Assembly: GCA_025350445.1 (NCBI GenBank)
Contig: JANXXV010000038.1
Span: 1-13,859, forward strand
Source: Bryobacteraceae bacterium
Lineage (GTDB): Bacteria > Acidobacteriota > Terriglobia > Bryobacterales > Bryobacteraceae
Direction of reading: 5' to 3'
Length of the DNA stretch: 13,859 nucleotides
Position numbers and translations under genes: made by a program. The notes beneath the pieces are model-generated. The model did no database searches and was not told the origin of the DNA. It was given only the letters and a program-made list of their open reading frames with translations. Shown here piece after piece: positions 3,667-13,720 of this stretch (position 1 is its first letter; every line of letters begins with the position of its first letter).

Positions 3667-5141
3667 AAACCCTCCGGGCGCGGTCTATCCGGGTCCAAAG
3701 GATAAATGGGACGGGGCACGCGCCGGAAGGGCAACGCCTTCAAATTGGCGGTGCTGACACCGGGAGTATCCACCATAAAAATAGCTTTGGCGATGGGCTC
3801 GTAGGCGGCGCGGAATCCGTTGGGCGATTTCACCACTACGATCTGGCAATGCACGGGGTCGATACCGTGGCTTTGAAACAGCGCCGGATCCACCGTCATC
3901 GCGGACCGTTCGGCAATCAGGATCTGCACCTGGCCTACCTCGATTACAGCGCTTCGTCCCATGCAGGTCATGATGCCGGTATTGTATCCCCGCGCCCGCG
4001 CGATCCAGCGTCCGTCCGAAATCAGCCTGACGTAGGCCGTCACTTTGACCGGCTTGGAGTGCTTCTTATCGAAGGCGCCGCCGATCTTCATCGTCACTGT
4101 GGCGCCGGGCCCTGCCTCTATCGCGCGGGCCACCGCAGCGGGATCGACTAGAAAGATCGCCGCCGGACGCGTCAACGGCGCTTTCACCAGATGCTTCAGA
4201 ACGCCGGTGCTATCCCCTGGAGAACCGGAACCTGTGCTGTCGGACGATTCGGCCAACACCACCAGCCCGTCCTTCACCTTCATGGCCGCGGAGATGGCAT
4301 CCTCTACCGGAGTCAGCTTCACATCGTACGCCGTTCTGTTGTCCCAAAGACGGCGCGCCAATCCATCCGCCTGGCGTTGCGCACGCTTGGCGTGGTTGTT
4401 CGTTACGGAGACAACGGCGCAGCCCATTTCCTCGATGTCCATCCATGGCTGAACCGGGAAAATCGACACCGCTTCTGCCTTTCCCTTTGCCTCCAGAGCC
4501 TCCGCCGCTCGCATCAGTTTATGCATCGGACCGCTGGACGTTTGGCAATTCTCCGCGGGCACAATCAGCGGAAGCTTCCGGAATGCCATGGTAGGCTTTA
4601 CGGCGCCGCGCTGAATTTTCAGCATCAGCTCCGCGGCTTTTCGCCCGGTCTCGAACAAGTCGACGTGCGGGTAGGTGTGGTAGCCGACAATCGCGTCCGC
4701 AACCTGCACCATTTCCCGGGTGATGTTGGCATGTAGATCGAGCGTCACCACGATGGGCCGGTCCGGACCCAGGATCGCGCGCGCCCTGGCGAGCAGTTCG
4801 CCTTCCACGTCGTCCTCGCCTTCCGCAGTCTGCGCCCCGTGCATCGCCAGCAGCAATGCATCGGCCTTAGCCGCTTGCAGTTCCTCCGCGAACCGGTTCG
4901 CCAGCTTTTCAAAGCCGGCCCGCTCCAGACGATTGGCGGTGATGGCCCAGGCGGCGCAGACGGGAAGGATGGTGGCCCGCGCGCGCCGCAGTACGTCAAT
5001 GAAACCGCCCATCTCGGTCAGTTTCCCTTCATGGCGAAGGAGAACCTCCGGGCCGAAGACAGGAGAGAAGTCTTCGTAACGAGTGTGGACGGGAGAGAAG
5101 GTGTTGCTTTCCTGCAGAATGGAGGCAATGGCAATTTTCAT
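3663..5141 (-). CDS. M81 family metallopeptidase (MlrC / microcystinase C-like)
   Basis: A 492-residue member of the M81 (DUF1485/MlrC) family. These are metal-dependent hydrolases named after the enzyme that cleaves linearised microcystin; most members have unknown natural substrates. The N-terminal signature MKIAIASILQESNTFSP is typical, and candidate metal or catalytic residues sit in QESNTF (10-15), MHGA (100-103), TLDLHAN (133-139) and YHTYPHVDLFETG (154-166). A glycine-rich STGSGSPGDSTG segment, also typical, follows in the C-terminal half. No signal peptide is seen, so it is probably cytoplasmic. The ATG at 5141 has no clear Shine-Dalgarno sequence. The TGA of the chimeric remnant lies six bases upstream, matching the spacing between the TonB gene's stop and the remnant's ATG. 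It is coupled to the MFS gene through a GTGA overlap. Confidence 0.92.
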   Translation of the reverse strand: MKIAIASILQESNTFSPVHTRYEDFSPVFGPEVLLRHEGKLTEMGGFIDVLRRARATILPVCAAWAITANRLERAGFEKLANRFAEELQAAKADALLLAMHGAQTAEGEDDVEGELLARARAILGPDRPIVVTLDLHANITREMVQVADAIVGYHTYPHVDLFETGRKAAELMLKIQRGAVKPTMAFRKLPLIVPAENCQTSSGPMHKLMRAAEALEAKGKAEAVSIFPVQPWMDIEEMGCAVVSVTNNHAKRAQRQADGLARRLWDNRTAYDVKLTPVEDAISAAMKVKDGLVVLAESSDSTGSGSPGDSTGVLKHLVKAPLTRPAAIFLVDPAAVARAIEAGPGATVTMKIGGAFDKKHSKPVKVTAYVRLISDGRWIARARGYNTGIMTCMGRSAVIEVGQVQILIAERSAMTVDPALFQSHGIDPVHCQIVVVKSPNGFRAAYEPIAKAIFMVDTPGVSTANLKALPFRRVPRPIYPLDPDRPRPEGL

Positions 5142-5333
5142 CGGAAGTCAAAACACTAATTTCAGGCTCATCTGTCCGACAGGCGCGGCACCGGCGGTTG
5201 AGAAGTCTTCGTATCGAGTGTGGACAGGAGAGAACGTGTTACTTTCCTGCAGTATGGAGGCGATCGCGATTTTCATTTAAATTCAAAACACCAATTTCAG
5301 GCTCATCTGTCCGACACGCGCGGCGCCGGCGGT
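5064..5333 (-). repeat. Two tandem 135-bp units (5064-5198 and 5199-5333)
   Basis: Each unit holds the last 16 codons and stop of a TonB receptor, a 6-base spacer, and the first 26 codons of an M81 gene. By hand alignment they differ at 16 of 135 positions (about 88% identity) with no indels. The four spacer differences (CTTCCG versus ATTTAA) are the densest cluster of changes, while coding parts change almost only at third positions. The outer half-units belong to the intact genes and the inner halves form the chimeric ORF. Confidence 0.9.
5148..5276 (-). pseudogene. 42-codon in-frame chimera: M81 N-terminus fused to TonB-receptor C-terminus
   Basis: An intact small ORF lies between the TonB receptor and the M81 gene. 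Its first 26 residues (ending in HTRYEDFS) are identical to residues 1-26 of the M81 protein. Its last 16 (TAGAAPVGQMSLKLVF) match the C-terminus of the TonB receptor except for one R-to-P change, and it ends in TGA. Against the intact neighbours there are 12 coding differences, 11 of them synonymous third-position changes. The junction has a possible 2-base microhomology (TC). The simplest reading is a deletion scar of a former second TonB-M81 gene pair. Whether it is translated is unknown. No Shine-Dalgarno sequence is visible, but its ATG sits six bases after the TonB stop, as M81's ATG does after its own stop. Confidence 0.8.
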
Positions 5334-11056: not shown

Positions 11057-11131
11057 TGGAGCGGGAGACCAGGATCGAACTGGCAACCAACAGCTTGGAA
11101 GGCTGTGACTCTACCATTGAGTTACTCCCGC
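11057..11131 (-). tRNA. tRNA-Gly(TCC)
   Basis: A full cloverleaf folds on the minus strand. The acceptor stem is GCGGGAG/CTCCCGC, the D arm ACTC/GAGT with loop AATGGTA, and the anticodon stem ACAGC/GCTGT with loop CTTCCAA (anticodon TCC at 11099-11097). A 5-base variable loop follows, then the T arm GCCAG/CTGGT with loop TTCGATC. The discriminator is T and the CCA tail is encoded at 11059-11057. It reads GGA glycine codons. The gene converges on the aminotransferase, with four bases between that gene's stop and the CCA. Confidence 0.97.
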
Positions 11132-11198: not shown

Positions 11199-11669
11199 CT
11201 ACTTCGTCACCTTGATCACAAAATAAGTAAACTGCTTCCCATCCGCCACTTGCAGTTGATGCGGCATCTTTGCCGGAATGCACACAATATCGCCGGCGCC
11301 CAGCTTCTTGCTGTCTCCGCCCTTAATGGAAGGCCCGCGCAGCTCGTTCGGAGCCGATTGGTGCGGGTTCACCACTTGCCCGCCCACCACCAGCGTCGCT
11401 TCCCCGCTCTCCACCACAAAGAAATCCTGCACCATCTCATGAACCTCGGCTTCCCCGTTCCCCTCGCGATGGGAAATCTGCGCCTTGGCATTGTTGCCCA
11501 GCGCACCGAATGCCTCGGACGCAATCTTCGCCTTGTCCACCTTGGCGGCCAAAGTCTTCTCGTAGCCCTTTAATTCCGTGTTGCTCCACAGCCGGAAGCC
11601 CGGCAGATCGGCCCCAGCCGCCAACACCGCGGCCCCTGCGCCAATCAGCGCCATCCATGAATATTTCAT
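11199..11669 (-). CDS. Exported cupin-domain protein
   Basis: A 156-residue protein with an N-terminal signal (MKYSWMALIGAGAAVLAAGA) and a single cupin barrel. Candidate metal ligands are His67 in ISHREG, His77 and nearby acids in AEVHEMVQDFFVVESGEATLVVGG (first cupin motif), and His137 in GAGDIVCIPAKMPHQL (second motif). The function of such small periplasmic cupins is not defined, and no enzyme class can be assigned. The start is well supported by GGAGG at 11678-11674, four bases before the ATG. It lies 35 bases downstream of the redoxin-DsbD fusion on the same strand, so the two are probably co-transcribed. The region between its stop and the tRNA gene (11132-11198) holds nothing recognisable and no clear terminator. 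Confidence 0.85.
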   Translation of the reverse strand: MKYSWMALIGAGAAVLAAGADLPGFRLWSNTELKGYEKTLAAKVDKAKIASEAFGALGNNAKAQISHREGNGEAEVHEMVQDFFVVESGEATLVVGGQVVNPHQSAPNELRGPSIKGGDSKKLGAGDIVCIPAKMPHQLQVADGKQFTYFVIKVTK

Positions 11670-11704: not shown

Positions 11705-12742
11705 TTAATGGACCCGGCGCTGCAGCTCCGCGGGAACACGCGTACGGTCATGCGGTTCATACAGCAACGTCCATTTGAGCGGCACATTTTGGGGCAAATA
11801 ACACATCCGGTCGTCACAGGCCTGGTAGCGAAGCGTCCCCTCCATCACAAGCTGCCCGCCTTCCTTCAACAGCGGGTCCACTTTCGCCTGGGCCGCAATC
11901 ACCACTTCCCGCTGCAACGTGAAACGTCCCGCATAAACGTCCACCGTCTCCTCGATTGCCTCCAACCGCAGCTTTTTCGACGGCGGATAGATCGCCGGCG
12001 CCGGCTGCATCGCCGCGGAATCCGCCATCTTCCAGTCGATGGGAATATAGCCCTCCACGCCTGGCGCGTACACATGCATCCCAGGCTTCAACTCGATGTC
12101 CAAAATCAGCCGGATTCTCTCACCAGGCCGGACCTTCGCGTTCGAAGCCGATGCCGTAACCTTCAAGTGCTTCGTCTCTACCTGCGATTGCGCGGCCCCG
12201 GTGCGCACGTCTAACTTCTCAGTCAGGATACTTCCCACCGTGAAGCGCTGCCGGTAGTCCTCGTCGAACTTGCGGGAAATCACAATGCCCTTCGGATCCA
12301 CAATATACGTCACCGGATGCGGAATCCCGTAGAAGGGATTGTCCTTCGCCACCGACTCATTCAGAATCCCGAAATCCCGAATGATCTTGGAGTCCGGGTC
12401 GGAAAGCATCGGAAACTCGATCCCTTTGCGCTTGGCAAAGTTCGACAATACGGCAACACTGTCAAAACTGATCGCCGCCAATCCCAACCCGGCCTTTCGT
12501 AAACTTTCCCTGCTCTCGTTCAGCTCCACGAGCTGGCTTTTACAGAACGGTCACCAGTCCGCCGAACGGAAAAATACGATCATCGCGCCCTTCGGCCCCT
12601 TGACGCGATCCAAGGTCTGCATCACCCCGTTCTGGTCCGTCGCGGAAAATCGTGGGATTAGGGCCCCCACATCGGGGCCGCGACTACCCGACTGGGCGGC
12701 AAGGCGCATTCCCAAAGCCACAAGCAGTATGAATGGACGCAA
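11705..12742 (-). CDS. Putative selenoprotein: secreted redoxin (UxxC) fused to a DsbD-alpha-like domain
   Basis: One frame of 345 codons, interrupted only by TGA at 12553-12551. The TGA stands where the first active-site cysteine belongs: SADW-TGA-PFC, codon 64, giving a Sec-Pro-Phe-Cys redox motif in place of CxxC. The N-terminal half is an AhpC/TSA-type redoxin (IPRFSATDQNG, KGAMIVFFRSADW, ILNESVAKDNPFYGIPHPVTYIVDPKGIV). The C-terminal half resembles DsbD-alpha, with YQACDDRMCYLP carrying Cys309 and Cys314. A signal peptide (RPFILLVALGMRLAAQ) predicts periplasmic thiol-disulfide or peroxide reduction. After the TGA 281 codons stay open and conserved in style, and a hairpin lies at SECIS distance. 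The TTG start at 12742 fits AGGAG at 12753-12749; ATGs at 12748 and 12769 are alternatives. Without Sec machinery in the genome this would be a pseudogene. Confidence 0.82.
12517..12550 (-). promoter_or_regulatory. SECIS-like hairpin directly after the TGA codon
   Basis: On the minus strand CAGCTC (12535-12530) pairs perfectly with GAGCTG (12526-12521) around a GTG loop. The loop begins after 21 intervening bases following the TGA, inside the window generally expected for bacterial SECIS elements, and it contains G. A lower CGTT/AACG helix (12549-12546 with 12520-12517) extends the structure with a 10-base 5' bulge. Recognition by SelB is inferred from position and shape only. Confidence 0.62.
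12551..12553 (-). other. In-frame TGA, predicted selenocysteine codon
   Basis: The codon reads TGA in the frame shared by the upstream and downstream halves of the redoxin gene. The flanking residues SADW and PFCKSQLVEL leave little doubt that family members have Cys here. A single-base change (TGC or TGT to TGA) separates the Cys and Sec forms. Confidence 0.78.
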
Positions 12743-12748
12743 GACCAT

Positions 12749-12753
12749 CTCCT
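12749..12753 (-). promoter_or_regulatory. Shine-Dalgarno AGGAG for the redoxin gene
   Basis: AGGAG lies six bases before TTG (12742), directly abuts the ATG at 12748, and lies inside the ORF if the ATG at 12769 is used. Spacing therefore favours the TTG, the same arrangement as in the aminotransferase gene of this window. Confidence 0.6.
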
Positions 12754-12852
12754 GCACTAGATATACCATTGAACAGCCCGATTATTCCCGCAACTTCTGG
12801 TAGACAGCCGGGTTTGTGAACCGTTAGACGAGAAGCCCGATACCATCCCTCA

Positions 12853-12988: not shown

Positions 12989-13720
12989 ATGAACAATGCC
13001 GTAGATCCTGCAGCGAATGTCGGCGACCCTTCCGGCCCGGCCGATGTGAAGCCCACCATAATTCGAGTAGTACTGGCGGATGACCATCCTATCGTCAGAG
13101 ACGGGCTGCGCAAGTTGCTTATGCTCGAAGATGACATCGTCGTCGTCGGTGAAGCGAGCGACGGGCGCGAGGTGTTACAGGTGGTTCAGGACACGGAACC
13201 AGACGTAGTAATTCTGGATCTCCGCATGCCGAACCTGGATGGACTTTCCGCTCTCCAGGCACTTCAGCAGTTTAATAAAAAGGCGAAGATCATCATTCTG
13301 ACGGCTTCTGAAGACAAGAACGAGTTTGTCCAGGCGATGAAGCTTGGATGCTCCGGTATTGTGTTAAAGCAGACCGCTCCGGAACTGATCATCAAAAGCA
13401 TTCGCAAGGTGTTTGCCGGCGAGATCTGGCTGGATTCGCACACCACGGCGGCGGTAATGCGCCAGTTCGCCGCTCCGGGAGATGTAATCGGCGGCAGCGG
13501 TGGCAAAACGCGGGAGCGTTCTCCGCTCAGCACCCGAGAGCGCGAGATTGTGGGACTGGTAGCGCAAGGATACAAGAACAAGGAAATGGCCGAGAAGATG
13601 TTCATCAGCGAGCAGACGGTGAAAAACCATCTGCATAACATCTTCGACAAACTGGGCGTTTCCGATCGGCTGGAGCTTGCGCTCTATGCCATCCATAAGG
13701 GTCTGCATCTGGACCGTTAA
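12989..13720 (+). CDS. NarL/FixJ-family response regulator
   Basis: A 243-residue two-component response regulator. The receiver domain (about 25-140) has the acidic pair Asp31-Asp32 in LADDHPIVRDGL, the phospho-acceptor Asp77 in VVILDLRMPNLDG, Thr105 in ILTASED and Lys127 in IVLKQ. A glycine/serine-rich linker (about 162-178) joins it to a LuxR-type HTH (about 178-240: LSTREREIVGLVAQGYKNKEMAEKMFISEQTVKNHLHNIFDKLGVSDR). An extra ~24-residue N-terminal tail rich in Pro, Asp and Ala precedes the receiver, so initiation further in is possible, though no better Shine-Dalgarno sequence is seen. No sensor kinase is in the window, so it is an orphan here. The palindromes upstream may be its own binding sites. 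The signal is unknown. Confidence 0.93.
   Translation: MNNAVDPAANVGDPSGPADVKPTIIRVVLADDHPIVRDGLRKLLMLEDDIVVVGEASDGREVLQVVQDTEPDVVILDLRMPNLDGLSALQALQQFNKKAKIIILTASEDKNEFVQAMKLGCSGIVLKQTAPELIIKSIRKVFAGEIWLDSHTTAAVMRQFAAPGDVIGGSGGKTRERSPLSTREREIVGLVAQGYKNKEMAEKMFISEQTVKNHLHNIFDKLGVSDRLELALYAIHKGLHLDR

Follow-up and report, generated by a model that had tools for sequence, protein, structure and literature searches.

The window analysed here (the whole stretch of 13,859 nucleotides) carries on its minus strand a gene whose single in-frame UGA, at codon 64, is very probably decoded as selenocysteine (Sec) by SelB under the guidance of a hairpin. The best explanation overall, to which we assign a probability of about 0.85, is that this gene encodes one exported selenoprotein, a thiol:disulfide oxidoreductase recharged in cis by a fused DsbD-alpha domain. 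The initial annotation had proposed a single selenoprotein, and this proposal is supported by codon alternation in relatives, by the hairpin, by purifying selection on both sides of the UGA and by the Sec machinery in genomes of relatives. Sec in the window's own organism is what we infer.

The gene and its two domains

The gene extends from a TTG at 12742 to a TAA at 11705, with the in-frame TGA in the context RSADW-U-PFC. The initial annotation had given the same coordinates, to which we add the strand, and had described two open reading frames in one frame split by the TGA, followed by 281 open codons. Both descriptions are borne out: the frames lie at 12769..12551 and 12529..11705 with the TGA at 12553-12551, and codons 65-345 are free of stops up to the TAA, a run expected by chance with P of about 3.4e-5 at the base composition of the window. 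The features referred to below, all on the minus strand, are these:

11705..12742, minus: candidate selenoprotein gene encoding a 345-residue redoxin/DsbD-alpha fusion, probably exported (open reading frames, read-through translation, dN/dS, comparison with locus L001)
12749..12753, minus: ribosome-binding site AGGAG, 6 bases before TTG 12742
12692..12742, minus: residues 1-17, a probable signal peptide, LRPFILLVALGMRLAAQ (initial residue taken as Met; from the sequence)
12278..12670, minus: Prx-like, thioredoxin-fold redoxin domain, residues 25-155 (Pfam AhpC-TSA)
12551..12553, minus: UGA codon 64, first position of UxxC, read as Sec (alternation of TGA and Cys codons)
12542..12544, minus: Cys67, partner of U64 (invariant across the 64 rows of alignment A3)
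12521..12535, minus: SECIS-like hairpin (fold energy, pair counts, codon-aware control, model search)
11786..12151, minus: DsbD-alpha domain (DsbD_N, PF11412), residues 198-319 (Pfam and fold)
11816..11818, minus: Cys309, first of the DsbD-alpha pair (invariant across the 64 A3 rows)
11801..11803, minus: Cys314, second of the DsbD-alpha pair (invariant across the 64 A3 rows)

The closest relative locus, L001, is 86% identical and has a TGA at the same place. Purifying selection acts both upstream and downstream of this codon, with dN/dS between window and L001 of 0.10 over residues 21-63 and of 0.125 over residues 65-345. The TTG start is supported by the ribosome-binding site upstream and by its conservation in L001, which does not keep the ATG (12748) found two codons upstream in the window. 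A helix spans residues 3-15, within the probable signal peptide, in the AlphaFold model of the whole chain (mean pLDDT 93.0, pTM 0.86).

Pfam matches cover residues 25-155 (AhpC-TSA), 25-163 (Redoxin) and 198-319 (DsbD_N). The first two (PF00578 and PF08534) exceed their cut-offs and are accompanied by U64-P-F-C67, the combination that defines a Prx-like UxxC oxidoreductase. By fold, the redoxin part is matched best by peroxiredoxins; in a profile search of PDB sequences, the top match is ResA. The NCBIfam model SelL_rel_redox (NF040769) scores 44.8 bits, below the 120 bits it requires. The C-terminal domain with a Cys pair of its own, also claimed by the initial annotation, was recovered both by Pfam, over the gathering score, and by fold, its pair (C309 and C314) being spaced C-x4-C. 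Since the whole-chain model gave peroxiredoxin-type matches only among those listed in VIA, this domain was modelled separately. The isolated model returned DsbD or ScsB domains in all of its top 11 VIA rows, and in Foldseek ScsB alone stood out (E 2.5e-5) among the 50 matches listed; DsbD entries were absent from those 50 and present in the VIA re-alignment. A phmmer search of the domain against PDB sequences gave no match, and the Pfam scan of the fusion protein listed no DsbD_TM, the same-chain transmembrane domain that characterizes a full DsbD.

Conservation of the cysteines was assessed in alignment A3. Its 64 rows come from the window, from 18 TGA loci out of 22, from five Cys loci and from 40 of the 73 Cys proteins listed; every row was picked for Cys or Sec at position 64, so that invariance at that position is by construction. 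Outside A3 stand L004, L012 (cut by a contig end), L017, L021, the remaining Cys rows, and the 40 late-starting and seven W, S or L proteins described below. L021 does not have one Cys of the DsbD-alpha pair. DsbD_N was recognised in all 24 domain sequences. The source name of one homologue, P0115 ('AhpC/TSA family protein/cytochrome c biogenesis DsbD-like protein'), shows that the two domains have been annotated together before, though without Sec.

In the window the gene is flanked downstream by a cupin gene (11199-11669, minus strand) and upstream by a divergent gene for a LuxR-type response regulator (12989-13720, plus strand), each 93% identical in L001. Among the loci compared, only L001 shares these neighbours. 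An operon hypothesis was rejected, as no gene was shared among 10 neighbour proteins from 7 loci, and none of the neighbours examined is a membrane DsbD gene. Just upstream of the TGA gene of L010 lies a gene for a DUF3179 protein (3759-4868, plus strand), a family for which Sec members are given in the accessible part of PMC13188914. A viral scan found no relative, and none of the 84 records returned by a plasmid tblastn covered 80% of the query. Elsewhere in the window, a tRNA-Gly (TCC) at 11057-11131 (minus strand) adjoins the cupin gene, and a short reading frame at 5083-5280 (plus frame) that overlaps the start of an M81 peptidase gene contains a stretch of about 20 residues in two similar copies, possibly a local DNA duplication.

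Codon 64 and the hairpin in relatives

As a check, the initial annotation suggested looking for alternation between Cys and Sec at codon 64 of homologues, and this alternation is seen. Of 107 loci from a scan of genome contigs, 80 were retained. The codon lies outside the stretch covered by L029 and L074; the 78 alignable loci have TGA in 22 cases and TGT or TGC in 56, the latter count including one distant row (L078, 27% identity). One of the six peptide search patterns, ADWCPFCK, itself selects Cys at this position, and we assume that most single-domain Cys loci were found through this pattern. In a protein search, the best 120 of 2304 homologues were used: 73 have Cys at position 64, 40 begin after it, and the others have Trp (3), Ser (3) or Leu (1). 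These last are P0017, P0021, P0042, P0062, P0086, P0092 and P0101; the Trp residues may reflect UGA translated under another code. The 40 late-starting proteins are probably products of gene callers begun past the UGA.

Record titles place 19 of the 22 TGA loci in Acidobacteria (Bryobacterales, Vicinamibacteraceae, Holophagales and others). The other three are labelled Acidimicrobiia (L008) and Proteobacteria (L016, L023). In the tree, the genes of these three fall among Acidobacteriota rows, either because the bins are mislabelled or because the gene was transferred. The tree is a quick one, built from the part after the UGA for 150 rows, with 54 of its 146 inner branches open. Parsimony on it requires at least 8 changes between Sec and Cys among rows of known state, 16 if the 40 late-starting proteins are taken as Sec, and 5 for the Sec rows on the starred branches alone. 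The starred set that contains the window has 9 rows: two with TGA (the window and L001), six late-starting proteins and one Cys form. The Cys form, P0002 (87% identity), reads SADWCLNC and thus has an altered dipeptide.

Downstream of the UGA, a 6-bp stem (12535-12530 with 12526-12521) closes an apical GUG loop (12529-12527) located 21 bases past the codon; the outer pair 12536/12520, paired in most relatives, is C-A and unpaired in the window. Published rules for the bacterial SECIS call for a loop of 3-9 nt, a stem of 4-16 bp, a distance of 16-37 nt from the UGA, a G within the first two loop positions and a minimum free energy of -7.5 or lower (section 5 of PMC13188914, as far as its accessible text goes). 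The window hairpin agrees with them in stem, loop and distance, and in energy at -8.2 kcal/mol when folded as a 19-base cut-out; the 54-base stretch and the 31-43-base stretches past the UGA adopt a different fold of lower energy. Rfam returned only a tRNA match on the window, so that the hairpin has no support from an Rfam family.

The hairpin recurs in relatives with TGA. In alignment A1 (23 TGA sequences, 21 of them distinct), 96.8% of cells in columns 18-23 versus 29-34 are paired in the distinct rows, a value reached by 0 of 500 shuffles, and four of these 21 rows have no pairing at the outer position 18/34. Double changes occur in the stem, for example from G-C to A-U at 21/31; cells paired, double-change cells and the covariation score all lie above 500 of 500 shuffles, and the counts of doubly changed pairs and of pair types are not above the shuffles (353/500 each). 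Among Cys rows, 53.7% of cells are paired in 27 distinct sequences, the control covering 28 of the 56 Cys loci, and 351 of 500 shuffles score as high. Since the stem follows partly from the coding of Gln-Leu-Val-Glu-Leu, we ran a codon-aware control in which synonymous codons were drawn at each locus's own usage. Codon usage would give the 5-bp core in 5.6 of the 23 TGA sequences, and it occurs in all 23; for the 56 Cys sequences the expectation is 2.75 and the observed count 3. A covariance model made from the TGA sequences scores 56.6-73.4 bits on those same sequences, by construction, and its best other site in the 44 sources searched reaches 27.8 bits, in L044. This site (5118-5168) belongs to a single-domain Cys homologue that retains the 5-bp stem and whose genome, G032, has SelA and tRNA-Sec; the stem may be there by chance or as a relic of a lost Sec codon.

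Selenocysteine machinery and the reading of the UGA

Searches for Sec machinery covered 38 genomes of relatives (22 with TGA, 16 with Cys) and 14 control genomes. SelA and SelB each exceeded their cut-offs in 21 of the 22 TGA genomes, and one or both did so in all 22; the corresponding number for Cys genomes was 2 of 16 (G026 and G032; Fisher p 1.2e-8 versus TGA), and among controls SelA passed in 1 of 14 and SelB in 2 of 14. On its own, selD is a weaker marker, because it passes its cut-off in four of the 16 Cys genomes as well as in 21 of the 22 with TGA. The Rfam cut-off of 47 for tRNA-Sec was passed by 29 of the 38 genomes and 5 of the 14 controls; because it did not discriminate, we adopted a threshold of our own choice, 60 bits, which was exceeded in 15 of 22 TGA and 2 of 16 Cys genomes. 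One Cys locus, L027, lies in a genome (G026) that has SelA, SelB and tRNA-Sec, yet its own copy carries Cys.

In the genome of the nearest relative, G001, SelB scores 384.9 bits, SelA is not over its cut-off and tRNA-Sec is not over 60 bits. As this is a metagenome-assembled genome in several hundred contigs, we read these absences as assembly gaps rather than as true absence. Its selD (L081, G001:C510:6500-8700) contains an in-frame TGA (AAG-TGA-ASK) with a hairpin after it, which makes SelD a second likely selenoprotein there. In eight of the 22 genomes with a TGA locus, the selD match itself carries one TGA.

Two other readings of codon 64 were weighed against Sec. Were the TGA a true stop, the locus would hold either a pseudogene or a pair of genes, with the GTG at 12529 as the start of the second; gene callers do choose such starts, as the homologues that begin past codon 64 illustrate (40 of the best 120 of 2304), and the GTG at 12529-12527 coincides exactly with the hairpin loop. 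A stop at this point would, however, interrupt the redoxin fold within its active site, and it fits poorly with the low dN/dS on both sides, with the same TGA in 22 loci from 22 genomes, with a hairpin present in every TGA sequence (5-bp core in 23 of 23) and with Sec machinery that tracks the TGA (22 of 22 versus 2 of 16 Cys genomes). We regard this reading as very improbable. Still more improbable is insertion of another residue, through a changed code or suppression as Trp, a reading to which the three Trp-bearing proteins among the best 120 of 2304 would lend some weight if they reflect TGA translated as Trp. UGA is a normal stop in the window, given that four of the eight other main genes end in TGA and none of the eight has one in frame, in keeping with the standard code; moreover, the 78 aligned loci have TGA or Cys codons exclusively, and selA, selB or both occur in the TGA genomes. 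Decoding as Sec accordingly remains the reading that we carry forward.

A possible selenium relay and its relation to known systems

In the mechanism that we propose, the hairpin, starting 15 bases past the UGA, would direct SelB to insert Sec at codon 64, and the chain would be exported to the periplasm. There the Prx-like domain would reduce a disulfide or another oxidised substrate through U64-P-F-C67, leaving its site as a U64-C67 selenenylsulfide. The fused C309/C314 pair may then reduce this bond in cis and be recharged in turn by a membrane carrier of the DsbD/CcdA type. That the N-terminal domain acts as a thiol:disulfide oxidoreductase is probable, and for in-cis reduction followed by recharging at the membrane we would give even odds. 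In E. coli, an equivalent hand-over takes place between separate proteins, from DsbD-alpha to DsbC and CcmG. The VIA rows for the C-terminal domain include solved DsbD-alpha complexes, 1jzd (with DsbC), 1z5y (with a partner that we take to be CcmG) and 1vrs (with the DsbD C-terminal domain), so that inter-chain hand-over from DsbD-alpha to thioredoxin-fold partners is known. DsbD_TM (PF02683) is present in 20 of the 22 TGA genomes, including that of the nearest relative, with no match in the other two.

The protein might instead be a selenoprotein of peroxidase type, in which peroxide is attacked by C67, with U64 as the resolving residue and the DsbD-alpha domain as reductant of the pair. Peroxiredoxins are indeed its closest fold matches, and HMMER alignments to Bcp and AhpE chains place C67 on what we take to be the peroxidatic Cys and U64 on what we take to be the motif Thr. 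A typical peroxiredoxin has Thr or Ser three residues before the peroxidatic Cys, together with an active-site Arg. Here, Sec or Cys occupies the Thr position, and the Arg is missing: columns 141, 143 and 144 have it in 0 of 64 rows and column 142 has none in at least 63 of 64. The motif W-C/U-P-x-C is also oxidoreductase-like, and the best PDB profile match is ResA. Taken together, we consider a peroxidase unlikely and retain the thiol:disulfide oxidoreductase as the working model.

A redoxin with UxxC is a known kind of selenoprotein, and, as far as we have checked, what is new is the fusion. The Prx-like (UXXC) family has been described under the names 'Prx-like thiol:disulfide oxidoreductase' and 'Redoxin family protein' (accessible parts of PMC1088965, PMC1794560 and PMC13188914, Table 1). 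The window protein resembles it, as far as these texts describe it, in its PF00578/PF08534 domains, in carrying UxxC where Sec peroxiredoxins carry TxxU and in the existence of Cys homologues; unlike the entries as printed, which name the redoxin domain only, it adds a DsbD-alpha domain with a Cys pair and is probably exported. For Acidobacteria, three selenoprotein families and four selenoproteins had been counted (accessible part of PMC1794560). In Table 1 of PMC13188914, as printed, DsbD is named for TsoB alone, a 'rhodanese/DsbD fusion-like selenoprotein' (NF045694) that is rhodanese-like with UxxxxU. Our protein differs from TsoB in that NF045694 is not among the matches listed for P0001 or the A3 members. 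Our searches of the open-licence literature, supplements and Haft and Tolstoy 2025 (PMC12013261) excepted, yielded no earlier description of a redoxin/DsbD-alpha selenoprotein.

Other relatives differ in architecture. Unlike in DsbD and ScsB, the DsbD-alpha domain of the window protein stands without an attached DsbD transmembrane domain and has C-x4-C spacing; that of E. coli DsbD-alpha is C-x5-C. CcmG/ResA-type oxidoreductases, among which CcmG works with DsbD in E. coli, share the thioredoxin fold and a WCxxC motif, with ResA as the best PDB profile match; in contrast to them, the window protein has Sec at the first Cys and its DsbD-alpha fused rather than separate, and by fold peroxiredoxins are nearer to it. 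The family Unknown_3 likewise joins a Prx-like UxxC domain to a Cys-bearing domain, and differs, by description only, in having three conserved Cys including a CxxC, as opposed to the two, spaced C-x4-C, seen here.

We tentatively propose, at slightly less than even odds, that the protein forms a self-contained periplasmic selenium relay, in which a carrier-loaded DsbD-alpha domain recharges a Sec redoxin on the same chain, and which would constitute a Sec-dependent reducing branch in Acidobacteriota with many exchanges between Sec and Cys. For sequence databases, the family is a reminder that part of it is held as truncated proteins, since 40 of the best 120 of 2304 homologues lose their active site. 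The gene would put a selenoenzyme on the DsbD electron path and makes it testable whether fusion of donor and acceptor, together with Sec, speeds periplasmic reduction. Finally, repeated switches between Sec and Cys within a fixed architecture offer a natural experiment on why Sec is retained or lost.
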